This document shows positions 28,201-35,494 of a stretch of DNA of 47,929 nt, in pieces. The notes under the pieces are model-generated. The model was not told where the DNA came from, searched no databases, and was given only the letters and a program-made list of their open reading frames with translations. A program made the translations under genes and the position numbers. The DNA comes from a virus. The DNA is taken from IMG/VR virus record IMGVR_UViG_3300028024_000127, positions 1-47,929 of that record; one strand, given 5' to 3'. Each line of letters starts with the position of its first letter. Positions within the stretch are counted from its first letter, which is position 1.

Positions 28201-28455
28201 ATGGTGCAGTATCAAACACAAATTGGCATCCATCAAACAGAGTATGGATACGAACAACTGGCAAATGCCATCATCCTGCAAGCGGTTAAGGATTATCGGG
28301 ACGCGTTGAAAAGACTGAAAAAGCATCCAAATAACAGCACGGCATTATCAACAAAGCTGGATGCGGAGCAGTTTCTCCGTTCGAATAGGTTCGCAATGCT
28401 GACCAGTATCGATCCGGAAATGTTGATTCAAAAGTTTCGTGCGGAGGTGGCATGA
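28201..28455 (+). CDS. Small phage protein of unknown function
   Basis: An 84-residue, helical protein starts at ATG 28201 with CGGAGGA upstream. Residues 30-55 (YRDALKRLKKHPNNSTAL) read like the short phage proteins found just before ArpU/DUF1492 regulators. The stop overlaps the next start (ATGA). Confidence 0.65.
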   Translation: MVQYQTQIGIHQTEYGYEQLANAIILQAVKDYRDALKRLKKHPNNSTALSTKLDAEQFLRSNRFAMLTSIDPEMLIQKFRAEVA

Positions 28456-28877
28456 TGACCTCAAAAGAATATCTCGGCCAGACTTATCGGCTTGATCAGC
28501 GCATAAACAGTAAACTGGAGCAGGTGTCCTCCCTGAGGGAACTCGTCGTGAAGGCGACCTCTACTATATCGGACATGCCAAGAGCGGCAACGCCAAACCG
28601 GCACCGCATGGAGGACATCATTTGCAAGATCGTCGGGTTGGAGAATGAAATCAATGCCGATATCGATCGCTATATCGACTTGAAGAAGGAAATACAGATG
28701 GTGATCGATGCAGTACCGAATCTGGATGAACGTATGGTGCTAAGCTATCGTTACACCCACAACTACACATGGTCGAGAATCGGTGAAGAGTTGAATGCCG
28801 ATGAGCGCACCGTCCGCAGATGGCATCAGCTTGCATTGCACCATGTAATCTTACCCCGCATCCCAATGATCATCTGA
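28452..28877 (+). CDS. DUF1492/ArpU-like transcription regulator
   Basis: This 141-residue protein has an N-terminal coiled coil and a C-terminal sigma-region-4-like helix-turn-helix (MVLSYRYTHNYTWSRIGEEL, then DERTVRRWHQLAL). ArpU/RinA-like proteins of this shape activate late phage transcription. Two ATG codons lie at 28452 and 28455 behind GGAGG. It is the last gene before a strong terminator and the obvious candidate for the activator of the late promoter region near 29731-29778. Confidence 0.82.
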   Translation: MMTSKEYLGQTYRLDQRINSKLEQVSSLRELVVKATSTISDMPRAATPNRHRMEDIICKIVGLENEINADIDRYIDLKKEIQMVIDAVPNLDERMVLSYRYTHNYTWSRIGEELNADERTVRRWHQLALHHVILPRIPMII

Positions 28878-28912
28878 AGCAGTGGTCACAGCACAAAATA
28901 AAATCAGCAATG

Positions 28913-28943
28913 AGCCTTCGAGAAAACCTCGAAGGCTTTTTCT
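28913..28943 (+). terminator. Intrinsic terminator ending the early operon
   Basis: AGCCTTCGAG (28913-28922) pairs perfectly with CTCGAAGGCT (28928-28937), followed by five T. It closes the replication operon. Confidence 0.9.
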
Positions 28944-28964
28944 GTAATTAATTTCCTGTCCCCA

Positions 28965-28993
28965 TTGACAATGCAACCAATCGGATGTAATAT
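28965..28993 (+). promoter_or_regulatory. Consensus promoter of the XRE gene
   Basis: TTGACA (28965-28970), 17 bases, TAATAT (28988-28993): one of the best sigma-A matches in the window. Confidence 0.88.
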
Positions 28994-29029: not shown

Positions 29030-29305
29030 ATGAATTTCATTAAATACGAATTCCCGAAAACTATAATTTCAGGTGAAGAGTTTTTTACAATGCAGGAAGA
29101 TCACCAAATTCTACGCAGCAGAAGAACTGAGCTTGGTTTGACGCAGCAACAAGTGGCGGACAAGGCCAGGATTCATCTGCAGCAGTATCAGAGATTGGAA
29201 AGCGGAGAAAGGCATATATATGGTGCAAGTATGCGCATTGGACTTTCCGTCTGTGCAGTGCTCAAGCTTGATCCGTATTTGTTCTTTCCCGAGATAAGGC
29301 AGTAA
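29030..29305 (+). CDS. XRE-family helix-turn-helix regulator
   Basis: This 91-residue protein has a Cro/CI-type domain at about residues 27-85 (LRSRRTELGLTQQQVADKARI, then YQRLESGERH). An unusual N-terminal extension of about 25 residues contains a FPKTIISGEEFF phrase. ATG 29030 has AAAGGAG upstream; the TTG start 21 bases earlier is not favoured. Lower GC than its neighbours and an own promoter, operator and flanking terminators suggest a cargo cassette between the replication and packaging modules. Confidence 0.85.
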   Translation: MNFIKYEFPKTIISGEEFFTMQEDHQILRSRRTELGLTQQQVADKARIHLQQYQRLESGERHIYGASMRIGLSVCAVLKLDPYLFFPEIRQ

Positions 29306-29400: not shown

Positions 29401-29658
29401 ATGGAATATTGGGAAATATCTGCAAATACAGCAGAACAAATTTACGAGAAAAGAGAACAACTTAAAGACTTGAAAAACTATCTCATTAAGTTAGATGTTC
29501 AGCGAGATTTTGCTGATAAAGGCTCACAAAGATTTTTAGAACTTGATTCGAGATATAATGAAATGAAACAAAAATATGAAGATCTGGAAAGCGAAATCGA
29601 CCAAATGGAAAGTAAACGAGAATCATTGTTACGAGAATATCCAGAATATTTTCGATAA
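29401..29658 (+). CDS. Small coiled-coil protein of the low-GC cassette
   Basis: This 85-residue protein is almost entirely coiled coil (residues 8-80; Lys/Glu-rich heptads such as LKDLKNYLIKLDVQ). ATG 29401 has an AAAGGAAAA site. It follows the XRE gene by 95 bases, with similarly low GC, so the two may form one unit. No function was recognised. Confidence 0.65.
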   Translation: MEYWEISANTAEQIYEKREQLKDLKNYLIKLDVQRDFADKGSQRFLELDSRYNEMKQKYEDLESEIDQMESKRESLLREYPEYFR

Positions 29659-29730
29659 TTGTAAAGCGCGATTTTATTTAGCAATTCCATGTTATGCAGA
29701 GAGCCATTTCCTAAATTATTAAAAATGCGC

Positions 29731-29778
29731 CGTAGATGTCCGTAGATGTCCGCACGGCATGTGTGTTACCATTACAAT
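29731..29778 (+). promoter_or_regulatory. Candidate activator-dependent late promoter
   Basis: Two perfect head-to-tail 10-bp repeats CGTAGATGTC (29731-29740 and 29741-29750) lie upstream of a -10-like TACAAT (29773-29778). There is no -35 box where one would be expected (29750-29755). This is the pattern of a promoter needing an activator bound near -40. Confidence 0.4.
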
Positions 29779-29795
29779 AGCAAAAACAGCATACA

Positions 29796-29835
29796 AAAAG
29801 GCCTTCACGGGAAATTCCCGCGAGGGCCTTTTGTT
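29796..29835 (+). terminator. Long hairpin terminator just downstream of the candidate late promoter
   Basis: AAAAGGCC..CGGG pairs with CCCG..GGCCTTTT in an almost unbroken stem of about 16 bp ending in TTTTGTTT. It stands between the presumed start site and the first late gene. Confidence 0.75.
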
Positions 29836-29861
29836 TACCATCCAGATGAGGAGGTTTGCGT

Positions 29862-30023
29862 GTGGACATAAGGACATTCATGAAATTGCTTCGTACAAAT
29901 AAGACGAACCTGACCAGGCAGCAGTTCGCCACGCTGAAAGGACAAGCTCTCTCCGGCAATATCGAAGGCGCCTTAAAAGGAATTAACACCCTGATCAAAC
30001 GGCGTCGGGCTTTATCGGTTTGA
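29862..30023 (+). CDS. Small phage protein preceding the HNH gene
   Basis: A 53-residue basic protein starts at GTG 29862 behind GAGGAGG: DIRTFMKLLRTNKTNLTRQQ, then FATLKGQALSGN.. and a KRRR tail. Short proteins of this type regularly precede HNH endonuclease genes at the packaging end of HK97-like prophages. Function is unknown. Confidence 0.7.
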   Translation: MDIRTFMKLLRTNKTNLTRQQFATLKGQALSGNIEGALKGINTLIKRRRALSV

Positions 30024-30038
30024 GTACGAGGTCCGTGT

Positions 30039-30398
30039 ATGCCCAATAAACCCAAACGTCCGTGCTCCTCCCCCGGTTGTCCCGAACTGACTGACGGAAG
30101 GTTCTGTAAAGAACACGCCAAACAGGAAGCACGGCGGTATGAACAATATGGACGTGATCCCGTTGCCAAGAAACGGTACGGCCGGACGTGGAAGCGCATC
30201 CGCGACCGTTATATCGCTGTCCACCCCCTGTGCGAGCAGTGTCAGGCCACCGACAGGATCACCCCCGCCGAGGAAGTACACCATATCCTTCCTCTCTCCC
30301 GTGGCGGCACGCACGCCGAGGAAAATCTTATGAGCCTATGCACGAGCTGCCACTCGAAAATCACTGCTCGGGATGGCGGGCGCTGGCAAAGACGTTGA
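30039..30398 (+). CDS. HNH endonuclease (packaging-associated)
   Basis: This 119-residue HNH nuclease has an N-terminal zinc knuckle (CSSPGCP .. CKEH), then CEQC near 66-69, the H-H motif in EVHHILPLSRGG, N in EENLMSLC, and CTSCH. HNH proteins next to terminases of cos phages cooperate with TerL/TerS to cut the genome at cos. ATG 30039. It lies upstream of TerS as expected. Confidence 0.93.
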   Translation: MPNKPKRPCSSPGCPELTDGRFCKEHAKQEARRYEQYGRDPVAKKRYGRTWKRIRDRYIAVHPLCEQCQATDRITPAEEVHHILPLSRGGTHAEENLMSLCTSCHSKITARDGGRWQRR

Positions 30399-30529
30399 TT
30401 CTTTCGGCGGGGAGGGGTGGTCAAAATCTCTGTGCCGCTTCGCTCGGGCAACGGGCAGGGGGTCACGCGCGAAAAAATTCAGGTTCAAACAGGGGATTAA
30501 CCCACCACAGCCATGAGGAGGTGATACAC
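30399..30529. other. Candidate cos region between HNH and TerS
   Basis: This is a 131-base non-coding gap with G-rich blocks (GGCGGGGAGGGGTGGTC, then GGGCAGGGGGTC) followed by an A/T-rich GCGAAAAAATTC. In HK97-like phages with an HNH-TerS-TerL order the cohesive-end site lies in this interval. The staggered cut itself cannot be read from sequence alone. Confidence 0.4.
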
Positions 30530-31108
30530 GTGGCGAAAGACGGAACGAACAGAGGCGGTCGCCGCGTGCGAGCCGGTGACAAACCTCAACCCCTCGTAGA
30601 TAAAATCTCGAAAGGCAAGGCAGCTAAAATACTGGAAGTCGCGGATCTGAAACCGGATTCGATGCTGGAAGCAGAAGACTTGGATGGAGCCTCTGATTTG
30701 CACGGAGAGGATATGCCTGCTCCAAGCGATTACCTCAGCGCAAGGCAAAAAGATGGGAAACCACTCGGCGCGGATTCGCTCTACATCGAAACATGGCAGT
30801 GGCTCAAAAACCGCGGGTGCGAGAAGTTAGTCAATCCGCGTCTTATTGAAGCTTACGCGCAGGCATTTACCCGTTTTATCCAATGCGAGGAGGCGATTAG
30901 CACATACGGGCTCTTAGGAAAGCACCCCACGACGGGCGGCGCTATCACCAGTCCCTTCGTTCAGATGAGCCAATCGTTCCAGAAGCAGGCTAACCTTCTC
31001 TGGTACGAAATTTTCGACATTGTCAAGCAGAACTGCACCTCTGCTTTTGTGGGCAACCCGCAGGACGACATCATGGAAGCCCTACTGTCGGGCAGGAAAG
31101 GTAGATAA
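30530..31108 (+). CDS. Phage terminase small subunit (P27 family)
   Basis: A 192-residue TerS starts at GTG 30530 behind GAGGAGG. It opens with a GRRVRAGDKP phrase, has a low-complexity acidic linker, and a helical C-terminal half (LYIETWQWLKNRG, then ARQKDGKPLG before it). TerS recognises the packaging site and loads TerL. An upstream in-frame extension is rejected because it lies in the cos interval and the HNH gene. Confidence 0.85.
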   Translation: MAKDGTNRGGRRVRAGDKPQPLVDKISKGKAAKILEVADLKPDSMLEAEDLDGASDLHGEDMPAPSDYLSARQKDGKPLGADSLYIETWQWLKNRGCEKLVNPRLIEAYAQAFTRFIQCEEAISTYGLLGKHPTTGGAITSPFVQMSQSFQKQANLLWYEIFDIVKQNCTSAFVGNPQDDIMEALLSGRKGR

Positions 31109-33628: not shown

Positions 33629-33809
33629 AAAGATAAAGAAACAAATCTTAGCTATACGGGAAAGCGGCGTTACTAACATGTTTGACGTTAAGCGCGTCCA
33701 AATTGAGGCCAACAATTGCGGCTTCCACGAATTGGTGGTATTCCTTATAGACCACAGAGCCGAATACAGTCGGTTCGTCGTAATAGGCGAAACGGAGGAC
33801 GCTTTATAA
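33621..33809 (+). CDS. DUF5049 protein
   Basis: This 62-residue protein starts at GTG 33621 behind GGAGG: KQILAIRESGVTNMFDVKR.. and ..HRAEYSRFVV. It matches the DUF5049 family that follows DUF4314 in many prophages. It may be a small nucleic-acid-binding factor; unknown. Confidence 0.85.
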   Translation: MTEKIKKQILAIRESGVTNMFDVKRVQIEANNCGFHELVVFLIDHRAEYSRFVVIGETEDAL

Positions 33810-33832
33810 CAATAACCGCGCGCTTAAGCAAG

Positions 33833-33860
33833 GAGCTTCCACATGGAGGCTCTTTTCTTT
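33833..33860 (+). terminator. Intrinsic terminator-like hairpin before TerL
   Basis: GAGCTTCC (33833-33840), loop ACAT, GGAGGCTC (33845-33852), then TTTTCTTTT. All eight pairs form (one G-T). It lies between the DUF5049 and TerL genes inside the late operon. Confidence 0.75.
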
Positions 33861-33889
33861 TGCCCATTATACGAAAGGAGGCGGCGGCA

Positions 33890-35494
33890 ATCAGAAAACT
33901 CAAAAACTACAAGCCGACCGCCTTCATGACCAAAGGATCGTACTACGATAAAGGCACCGCTGATTACGCGGTATCTTTTATCGAAGCCCTCTCTCATACC
34001 AAAGGTTCTTGGGCCGGGAAGCCCTTTGAACTTATCGACTGGCAGGAGCAAATCGTACGGGATGTATTCGGCGTTATCAAGCAAAACGGGTATCGCCAGT
34101 TCAACACGGCATATGTGGAGATTCCCAAGAAAATGGGCAAGTCTGAGCTTGCTGCCGCCATCGCTCTTTTGCTCACCTGCGGCGATCACGAAGAGCGCGC
34201 TGAAGTGTACGGCTGCGCGGCGGATAGGCAGCAGGCTTCCATCGTATTCGAGGTGGCGGCCGACATGGTGCGGATGTGCCCGGCACTGAACAAGCGCGTT
34301 AAGCTGCTTGCCTCCACCAAAAGGCTCGTATACCTGCCGACCAACAGCTTTTATCAAGTTCTGTCTGCAGAAGCGTACTCCAAGCACGGCTTTAACATAC
34401 ATGGCGTGGTGTTCGATGAGCTGCATACCCAGCCAAACCGGAAACTGTTCGATGTTATGACCAAAGGCTCCGGCGATGCGCGAATGCAGCCGCTGTATTT
34501 TCTTATAACTACGGCGGGTTCGGATACGAACAGCATCTGCTATGAAACACACCAGAAGGCGCTGGACATCCTTGAAGGCCGGAAATCTGATCCCACCTTC
34601 TACCCCATTATCTACGGCGCTGCGGAAGAAGACGACTGGACGGACCCCAAGGTATGGAGGAAAGCAAATCCCTCCCTTGGCATCACGGTCGGCATCGACA
34701 AAGTGAAGGCGGCGTGTGAATCGGCGAAGCAAAACCCTGCCGAGGAGAACAGCTTCCGTCAACTGCGCCTGAACCAGTGGGTGAAACAGGCTATCCGCTG
34801 GATGCCAATGGCAAAGTGGGACGCCTGCGCGTTTCCAATTAATACAGAGAACCTTCGTGGGCGGGTGTGCTACGGCGGGCTTGACCTTTCGTCCACCACG
34901 GATATCACAGCATTCGTGCTGGTATTCCCTCCGGAAGACGAAGCAGACAAATACAGTGTTCTGCCCTTCTTCTGGATGCCTGAGGATAACATCGACCTGC
35001 GTGTGCGCCGAGATCATGTACAATACGATCTCTGGAAGAAGCAGGGATACTTGCTGACTACCGAGGGTAACGTGGTTCATTACGGCTTCATTGAGAAGTT
35101 CATTGAGGAACTGGGCAAACAGTACAATATCCGTGAGATTGCTTTTGACCGTTGGGGCGCTGTGCAGATGGTGCAGAACCTTGAAGGGCTGGGCTTTACC
35201 GTCGTTCCCTTTGGGCAGGGCTTTAAGGACATGTCACCGCCCACCAAGGAGCTTATGAAGCTGACCTTGGAGGAGCGCCTCGCGCACGGCGGTCATCCCG
35301 TACTGCGCTGGATGATGGACAACATTTTCATCAAGACCGACCCAGCGGGCAATATCAAGCCCGACAAAGAAAAATCCACCGAGAGGATCGACGGCGCAGT
35401 GGCGACGATTATGGCGCTCGACCGCGCGCTACGGTGTGGCGGCGGCGATCGCAGCGCTTCCATCTACGACGAAAGGGGGCTTTTGATCCTGTGA
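33890..35494 (+). CDS. Phage terminase large subunit (start codon probably ATC)
   Basis: This TerL of about 534 residues comprises an ATPase (Walker A-like EIPKKMGKSELAAA near 75-88, Walker B VVFDELHTQ near 175) and a nuclease half (GGLDLSSTTDITAF near 330, RIDGAVATIMAL near the end). It packages DNA into the prohead. No ATG exists at the expected N-terminus. An AAAGGAGG site at 33874-33881 is followed 8 bases later by ATC, which as a start would give MRKLKNYKPT, the usual opening of this family. Alternatives are TTG 33860, whose ribosome site is buried in a hairpin, or ATG 33927, which would delete conserved residues. Confidence 0.9.
   Translation: MRKLKNYKPTAFMTKGSYYDKGTADYAVSFIEALSHTKGSWAGKPFELIDWQEQIVRDVFGVIKQNGYRQFNTAYVEIPKKMGKSELAAAIALLLTCGDHEERAEVYGCAADRQQASIVFEVAADMVRMCPALNKRVKLLASTKRLVYLPTNSFYQVLSAEAYSKHGFNIHGVVFDELHTQPNRKLFDVMTKGSGDARMQPLYFLITTAGSDTNSICYETHQKALDILEGRKSDPTFYPIIYGAAEEDDWTDPKVWRKANPSLGITVGIDKVKAACESAKQNPAEENSFRQLRLNQWVKQAIRWMPMAKWDACAFPINTENLRGRVCYGGLDLSSTTDITAFVLVFPPEDEADKYSVLPFFWMPEDNIDLRVRRDHVQYDLWKKQGYLLTTEGNVVHYGFIEKFIEELGKQYNIREIAFDRWGAVQMVQNLEGLGFTVVPFGQGFKDMSPPTKELMKLTLEERLAHGGHPVLRWMMDNIFIKTDPAGNIKPDKEKSTERIDGAVATIMALDRALRCGGGDRSASIYDERGLLIL

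Follow-up and report, generated by a model that had tools for sequence, protein, structure and literature searches.

A late-gene control element with tandem repeats, an extended -10 promoter and a promoter-proximal terminator, and its putative DUF1492 activator, in a virus record

The virus record IMGVR_UViG_3300028024_000127 (47,929 nt), analysed over its whole length and referred to below as the window (all window coordinates are on the + strand), carries a phage's control switch for late, particle-building genes, in which tandem repeats, a promoter and a hairpin follow each other closely ahead of the HNH endonuclease and terminase genes. Upstream of this element lie, in this order, a helicase gene, the gene of a DUF1492 protein, a terminator-like hairpin, a gene for an XRE-type helix-turn-helix (HTH) protein and a coiled-coil gene; the DUF1492 gene thus stands after the helicase and before the HNH-terminase genes, with two cargo genes intervening. 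Downstream follow a first small late open reading frame (ORF) of 55 aa without family match (29856..30023), the HNH endonuclease, a late gene (30039..30398; Pfam HNH, 54.4 bits; PHROG 144), the terminase small subunit (30530..31108; PHROG 83, E 6e-30), a methyltransferase and the terminase large subunit (33716..35494; Pfam TerL_nuclease and TerL_ATPase). An Rfam scan of the window returned 0 matches at the gathering score. The phage is presumably temperate, because its relatives sit within bacterial genomes.

The putative activator site, found by direct reading, consists of two copies of CCGTAGATGT followed by CCG (29730..29752), and the same motif accompanies (D/A)ERT(V/I)RRW helices in other phages. 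The copies begin at 29730 and 29740, and the window holds no further ones on either strand. Together with the CCG, 13 of 13 bases recur at an offset of 10, for which our arithmetic gives an expectation of about 0.0007 per 48 kb of random sequence; the perfect tandem 10-bp repeats claimed in a preliminary description of this DNA are hereby confirmed, as is the spacing given there, since exactly 22 bases lie between the end of the second CGTAGATGTC (29750) and TACAAT (29773-29778). The half-sites TGTCCG occupy 29737-29742 and 29747-29752, about -42/-37 and -32/-27 relative to the predicted start.

A sigma-70 scan (at least 9/12 matches) lists no + strand promoter at the repeat-TACAAT region, which bears out the asserted absence of a -35 box. 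The asserted -10 box had to be revised: a promoter is present, but its conserved part is the extended -10 TGT-TACCAT (= TGTTACCAT; 29764..29772), and TACAAT is only a second, adjoining -10-like box. This assignment follows the consensus TGnTATwAT of 54 nonredundant viral elements (of 71, drawn from 102 loci), in which T3 and T8 occur in 54/54, A4 in 53/54, T0 in 49/54 and G1 in 45/54. A leave-one-out matrix, trained without the window, gives its highest score in the window at position 29764 (21.3, against at most 10.5 elsewhere on the + strand and 8.2 on the - strand). Transcription is predicted to start at 29779, 7 nt past the first -10. Where repeats are clear (26 viral loci), a median of 15 nt separates the end of the second arm from the TG, which puts the centre of this arm near -35.

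The promoter is followed by an intrinsic terminator (29796..29836; direct reading, repeat finder and RNA folding), composed of a hairpin at 29796-29832 and a T-rich tail. Its 18-nt arms (29796-29813 and 29815-29832) are 89% complementary, and the segment 29780-29850 folds with -27 kcal/mol (z -5.1), a stability equalled by 0/200 shuffles. The hairpin begins 11-17 nt past the two possible start sites, in agreement with the earlier claim of a long hairpin terminator within about 15 bases of the start and ahead of the late genes. A simple terminator scan of the + strand does not list it, and of the programs used only two, RNA folding and the repeat finder, reveal it; we think that the scan missed it because the stem extends into the T-tract, so that not enough T follow. 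The hairpin is very probably a real terminator.

To place this arrangement in context, viral relatives were collected via the DUF1492 protein (23 loci) and the HNH protein (best 80 of 260), and genome relatives via the HNH protein (best 80 of 94 loci); repeat-pattern searches added one stretch with the exact repeat (IMG/VR) and 63 stretches with a broader pattern, many of them unrelated by eye. A profile search of the viral loci found a DUF1492 relative in 78 (77 at E < 1e-10), an HNH relative in 110 and both in 71. Ahead of HNH the same order is seen again: tandem direct repeats are followed after about 15-20 bp by an extended -10 and, past a short gap, by a T-tailed hairpin and a ribosome-binding site. 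Tandem repeats were detected in 26 of the 54 viral elements (1.7 expected), and a terminator within 80 nt in 51 of them, all except L014, L040 and L067 by this test, compared with 83/540 shuffles and 59/540 random positions; the element finder weighed hairpins and mischose some positions, so the value of 51/54 is not independent of the hairpin. Seventeen of the 71 nonredundant viral loci scored below 10, although the element is visible by eye in several (L004, L036, L041, L043, L052, L087).

The count relied on comes from the genome loci, where the promoter was picked, blind to hairpins, by the sequence matrix alone (trained on the viral elements). Here 27 of the 80 loci were left out (5 too short upstream, 22 redundant) and 53 were tested. 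At a score of at least 10, a terminator stood just downstream in 40/40 loci, against 53/400 random positions, and in 32/32 loci unlike the training set, against 44/320; for all scores the figures were 45/53 and 67/530, with 5/13 among the loci below 10. Other co-directional gaps of 80-350 nt in the same loci contained a terminator in 22/107 cases. The hairpin starts a median of 10 nt past the promoter matrix, and hosts among the 40 include Clostridium, Syntrophomonas, Acidaminococcus, Helcococcus, Falseniella, Oscillibacter and Desulfosporosinus. The promoter-then-terminator layout is widespread among related viruses of many bacteria, and the 40/40 independent loci above the matrix score support the further claim of the preliminary description that a terminator has to be overcome ahead of the late genes.

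Among named phages, the pair of promoter and terminator occurs in phi11, Erysipelothrix phi1605, Terrisporobacter TPDSL_ph1, Lactiplantibacillus H1-Guo, Gardnerella vB_Gva_AB1 (L254), Fusobacterium phiHugo (L255) and Ruminococcus phiRM10; the hosts of vB_Gva_AB1 and phiHugo lie outside Bacillota. The hairpin is 52-54 nt from the promoter in phi11 and phiRM10, and phi13 has a hairpin of -12.1 kcal/mol behind a promoter with a matrix score of only 4.9. In Paenibacillus phage Fern a promoter (10.1) and, by eye, a T-tailed hairpin follow the ArpU gene. A phage of another kind (L108, with a GpA-type terminase by eye) combines a DUF1492 relative, ATGTCC repeats and a terminator ahead of the terminase genes; its TATAAT box was identified by eye and has a matrix score of 0.9. 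At this locus (L108:8620-9230) and at L124:1965-2480, which likewise pairs a DUF1492 relative with ATGTCC repeats, the hairpin lies almost at the start predicted by eye, and the terminated RNA would measure only about 36 nt. Two tandem promoter copies with repeats precede one shared terminator at L005:6400-6610. In many loci TATGCCC recurs right behind the T-tract, about 25 nt upstream of HNH, and in some it opens a tiny frame ending at the ribosome-binding site, e.g., ATGCCCAAAATGAGGTGA in L064.

The proposed activator is the DUF1492 / sigma region 4-like protein of 141 aa (28452..28877), identified by Pfam, PHROG 36 (transcriptional regulator), an AlphaFold2 (AF2) model and covariation. Contrary to the preliminary description, its gene does not lie just upstream of the repeats, as 852 bp and two other genes separate its stop codon from them. 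The protein passes the Pfam cut-offs for DUF1492 (PF07374; 31.5 bits vs 21.5) and Sigma70_r4 (27.4 vs 24.1), and 43 of 44 aligned relatives (alignment A1) match DUF1492 at E 0.1. It misses the cut-off of the NCBIfam ArpU model (TIGR01637; 18.7 bits vs 43.1, E 0.0015), which 18/44 relatives match at E 0.01, and is ArpU-like, not ArpU by this model. The AF2 model (predicted local distance difference test, pLDDT, 90; predicted template modelling score, pTM, 0.74; 44/78 regulators aligned) consists of a long helical hairpin over residues 1-86 and, at the C-terminus, a sigma region 4-like domain; residues 77-138 superpose on structures of sigma region 4. Structure matches include 8jzt (root-mean-square deviation, rmsd, 1.5 over 50 columns) and SigR region 4 (Z 8.8, rmsd 3.0, 64 residues); the fold matches with the highest Z are coiled coils, matched by the helical hairpin of the model.

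Comparison between loci indicates that this protein reads the repeats. For loci with a promoter score of at least 10, the partial r between helix identity and repeat similarity, controlled for the rest of the protein, was 0.53 in 36 viral regulators (0/2000 permutations) and 0.50 in an independent genome set of 23 regulators that share no more than 90% identity with any viral regulator (0/2000 permutations); a first run with 37 regulators had given 0.50. None of 200 ten-residue blocks elsewhere reached the helix value (maxima 0.155 viral, 0.142 genome), and the converse value, for the rest of the protein with the helix controlled for, is 0.19 (viral) and 0.15 (genome). The correspondence can also be followed by eye, with DERT(V/I)RRW accompanying ATGTCCGnA, DLRYxHKLH accompanying GACAC, SIQHxFRxH accompanying GAGAG, NVRHVYRLH accompanying GTCAC, SIHHLYKxH accompanying GATAC, xRTVHRxHS accompanying TTGGCAC and DRTTVYRW accompanying TTGCAACA. 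Distant regulators with ERTVRRR or ERHMRR helices (L108, L124) also bear CCGnAnATGTCC-type repeats, and a close relative with the DRTTVYRW helix (L099) bears TTGCAACA repeats instead. Because the repeat tracks the recognition helix beyond the rest of the protein, DUF1492 is the likely reader and the XRE protein an unlikely one; that the DUF1492 protein binds the repeats is predicted with high confidence. This helix-repeat covariation bears out the ArpU-like protein as candidate activator and, together with the activator-dependent relative phi13 Ltr (PMC13123087), supports the activator-dependent promoter that had been postulated.

The motif is shared by one further contig and by a set of others. 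The sole exact-repeat match in IMG/VR is a 23-nt repeat in an unrelated-looking high-GC contig (L105:808-1140), where it lies between a small HTH gene (helix ERTARRW), which it follows directly, and a large gene of late type (a portal gene by eye); no -10 or terminator was recognised there by eye. This contig and the window have a similar helix and the same DNA without evident common descent. The contigs L111, L114, L119-L123, L128, L136, L138-L142, L145, L147, L165 and L166 carry ATGTCCGAAAATGTCCG, mostly repeated ahead of a GAGTCCTTTAGGACTC or GTGTCCTTAAGGACAC dyad (L142 ends early), without recognisable -10 or T-tract, and represent a different element using the same motif.

From the observed repeats, promoter consensus and T-tailed hairpin, and from their order, we propose the following mechanism. 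Each of the tandem TGTCCG half-sites, spaced by one helical turn, would hold one DUF1492 molecule; the downstream molecule would lie about where sigma region 4 would touch a -35 box and would recruit host RNA polymerase to the -35-less extended -10 promoter. RNA would begin near 29779, and within about 17 nt polymerase would meet the strong intrinsic terminator ahead of the HNH-terminase genes. Late expression would then need a polymerase that ignores this terminator; polymerase starting from this promoter may be able to do so, because a terminator behind the promoter in 40/40 loci is otherwise hard to explain. By the simplest route, promoter-loaded DUF1492 would stay with polymerase and antiterminate like phage 21 Q (21Q) and AlpA. 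On balance we consider this model of DUF1492 activation and antitermination through a built-in terminator somewhat likely, and regulated read-through at the terminator equally so; that DUF1492 itself is the antiterminator has an even chance. The position of the terminator suggests that the activators, or a partner, may also antiterminate, and antitermination as in lambda pR'-tR' is plausible. More tentatively, DUF1492/ArpU, RinA and Ltr of Gram-positive phages may all be sigma-region-4-like proteins that first take the place of sigma region 4 at a promoter without a -35 box and afterwards antiterminate through a terminator built into that promoter, forming a separate counterpart of Q with a readable helix-to-repeat code.

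Alternatively, DUF1492 might only initiate transcription, while the terminator insulates the late genes from early-operon and cargo transcripts and the strong promoter leaks enough late RNA. Such a division of tasks would suit phi13 Ltr and TP901-1 Alt, which are described as activators acting on repeats (PMC13123087), the cargo genes that precede the element here, in L002 and in L158, and the modest T-tails, 32/92 hairpins having at most 3 T in the last stem base and the following 5 nt. However, an insulator placed past the promoter would cut that promoter's own output, yet it is found in all 40 scored loci a median of 10 nt on, and loci without cargo between regulator and promoter carry it too. 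We regard this explanation as rather unlikely. A role of the hairpin as 5' mRNA stabiliser or as a structure shielding the ribosome-binding site, not as a terminator, is quite improbable: it does begin close to the predicted 5' end (median distance about 15 nt in 48 genome loci) and immediately ahead of the first ribosome-binding site, but conservation of T33-T35 of the tail, which a stabiliser would not need, reaches at least 90% across 65 aligned hairpins (rows preselected by a T-tail filter), and the median stem energy is -21 kcal/mol (viral set). Still less probable is binding of the repeats by the XRE protein in place of DUF1492; its gene (29030..29305; Pfam HTH_3) does lie between the DUF1492 gene and the repeats, but in L002 (first copy), L106, L112, L113, L131, L133 and L153 such repeats directly follow a DERT(V/I)RRW-type DUF1492 gene, and the covariation favours DUF1492. 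Finally, a packaging (cos) site or a binding site for HNH or terminase proteins, suggested by the adjoining HNH-terminase genes and the partly conserved dyad sequence, can practically be dismissed, because the stem pairs with U-G and compensated changes (double changes in 6/7 consensus pairs, weak evidence as the rows were preselected as hairpins and biased that way) and the cos overhang of Fern, at the record ends between HNH and the terminase small subunit gene (terS), is about 2.2 kb from the ArpU promoter-terminator (PMC6070908). The hairpin as cos or packaging site was rejected on this position of the Fern cos. In the window, the G-rich stretch between HNH and the terminase small subunit (30399-30530) has partial matches in 15 phage records and, by analogy to Paenibacillus phages, is the probable cos region.

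Several observations weigh against the proposed mechanism, which on this phage rests on sequence and comparison. The half-site positions, -42/-37 and -32/-27, are the geometry of an initiation activator, unlike the sites of 21Q and AlpA. The phi13 reporter used to demonstrate Ltr dependence ended at +50 (PMC13123087); with the start placed from the TATA-box position given in that paper, we reckon that it keeps the hairpin and cuts the T-tract, so that the Ltr effect would concern initiation, not read-through. A terminator-like hairpin is also present within 120 nt upstream of the promoter in 11/40 loci, and, besides the modest T-tails, the hairpin of Javan191 is without a T-tract. TP901-1 and A118 have no terminator of at least -8 kcal/mol strength beside the promoter (-6.0 and -5.5 kcal/mol), and in the Fern stretch examined the best promoter match (14.2) is at another place, where no such terminator is visible by eye. 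The second -10-like box (TACAAT type), only possibly a pause element of the initial transcribed region, is conserved in the training set and not clearly so in the independent set, whose elements had been selected without regard to it. In many loci the repeats and the end of the regulator gene share bases, and there repeat and protein are not fully separate DNA. A Foldseek search with the DUF1492 model gave no match at E 0.001 or better, and 21Q and AlpA are absent among the matches listed (50 per fold search; a likeness is still possible); the profile of alignment A1 against PDB sequences (E <= 10) likewise does not name 21Q among 20 matches.

The region between the DUF1492 gene and the repeats contains, besides the XRE-type gene as cargo and rival regulator candidate, the gene of a small coiled-coil protein (29401..29658; weak coiled-coil matches only). 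A consensus promoter, TTGACA-17-TAATAT (28965..28993; 10/12 matches; weak alone, with 4 sites vs 3.3 in shuffles), probably serves these cargo genes. It is preceded by the terminator-like hairpin behind the DUF1492 gene (28912..28938), which is also weak alone (5 sites in the scanned stretch vs 3.6 in shuffles). Aligned locally with the working element, 28876-28950 reaches a score of 39, compared with 32 for the best of 300 shuffles; of the 14 elements compared in this way, 5 beat all their own shuffles. The segment 28879..28946 is tentatively viewed as a probable decayed first copy of the control element that has lost its repeats. Three element copies (2011, 3847, 4416) flank cargo genes in L002, where the cargo (L002:2011-4540) includes, by eye, a RelB/DinJ-like antitoxin, and in L056 and L064 one repeat-bearing copy directly after the regulator and a second before HNH enclose cargo. 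L158 and, judged by distance, L066 and L077 likewise have cargo between regulator and element, and Fern has HicBA downstream of the regulator's promoter-terminator. These cases suggest that cargo is gained by element duplication or by recombination at the element.

The literature consulted treats the late activators of Gram-positive phages as simple activators, and the titles and abstract starts among the matches listed contain no link of ArpU, RinA, Ltr or DUF1492 with antitermination or a promoter-proximal terminator, although two founding papers may mention one. A terminator in 40/40 scored independent loci makes the plain-activator account incomplete, as happened with AlpA. Moreover, the helix-repeat correspondence is a large natural data set for the DNA-recognition code of sigma region 4-like proteins and could let late promoters be predicted from regulator sequence, and the element marks the early-late boundary in uncultured phages.

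Repeat-binding late activators are already known in RinA, Ltr and Alt. In phi13, activity of P23 is lost without Ltr or without its repeats (PMC13123087); the word "terminator" is absent from the main text of that paper. Terminator-like hairpins behind both the phi11 RinA and the phi13 Ltr late promoters resemble the window, whereas the phi13 repeats are 18 bp long and inside the regulator gene and those of the window are 10 bp long and 852 bp off, past two cargo genes. TP901-1 Alt is described as activating late transcription on direct repeats at -76 to -32 (PMC13123087), and the TGATATACTTGTATTATGAAG promoter after the alt gene fits our matrix (16.8); its terminator-like hairpin differs in lying far downstream, immediately before terS. 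Phage 21 Q has a sigma-R4-like fold by structure and binds as two protomers to direct repeats, with a -10-like element and a terminator to pass (PMC6606751), and the window offers a protein with a sigma region 4 domain by sequence (Sigma70_r4), direct repeats, a possible counterpart of the -10-like element in TACAAT and a downstream terminator. The 21Q subsites, however, are about 8 bp apart, near -21 and -13, between -35 and -10, whereas those of the window are 10 bp apart and at or above -35, which places its operator about 1.5 to 2 helical turns further upstream. AlpA of Pseudomonas aeruginosa is also bound to DNA at a promoter with a terminator downstream (PMC9371919; PMC7969949). It differs in acting as one molecule on one site between -35 and -10 and in controlling cellular lysis genes. 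The lambda promoter pR' fires without Q, and tR', about 190 nt away, gates all late genes. A late promoter followed by a terminator ahead of the late genes is common to both phages, but the promoter of the window lacks a -35 box and its hairpin is about 17 nt away. Phage 21 Q or AlpA offers a closer parallel than lambda Q.
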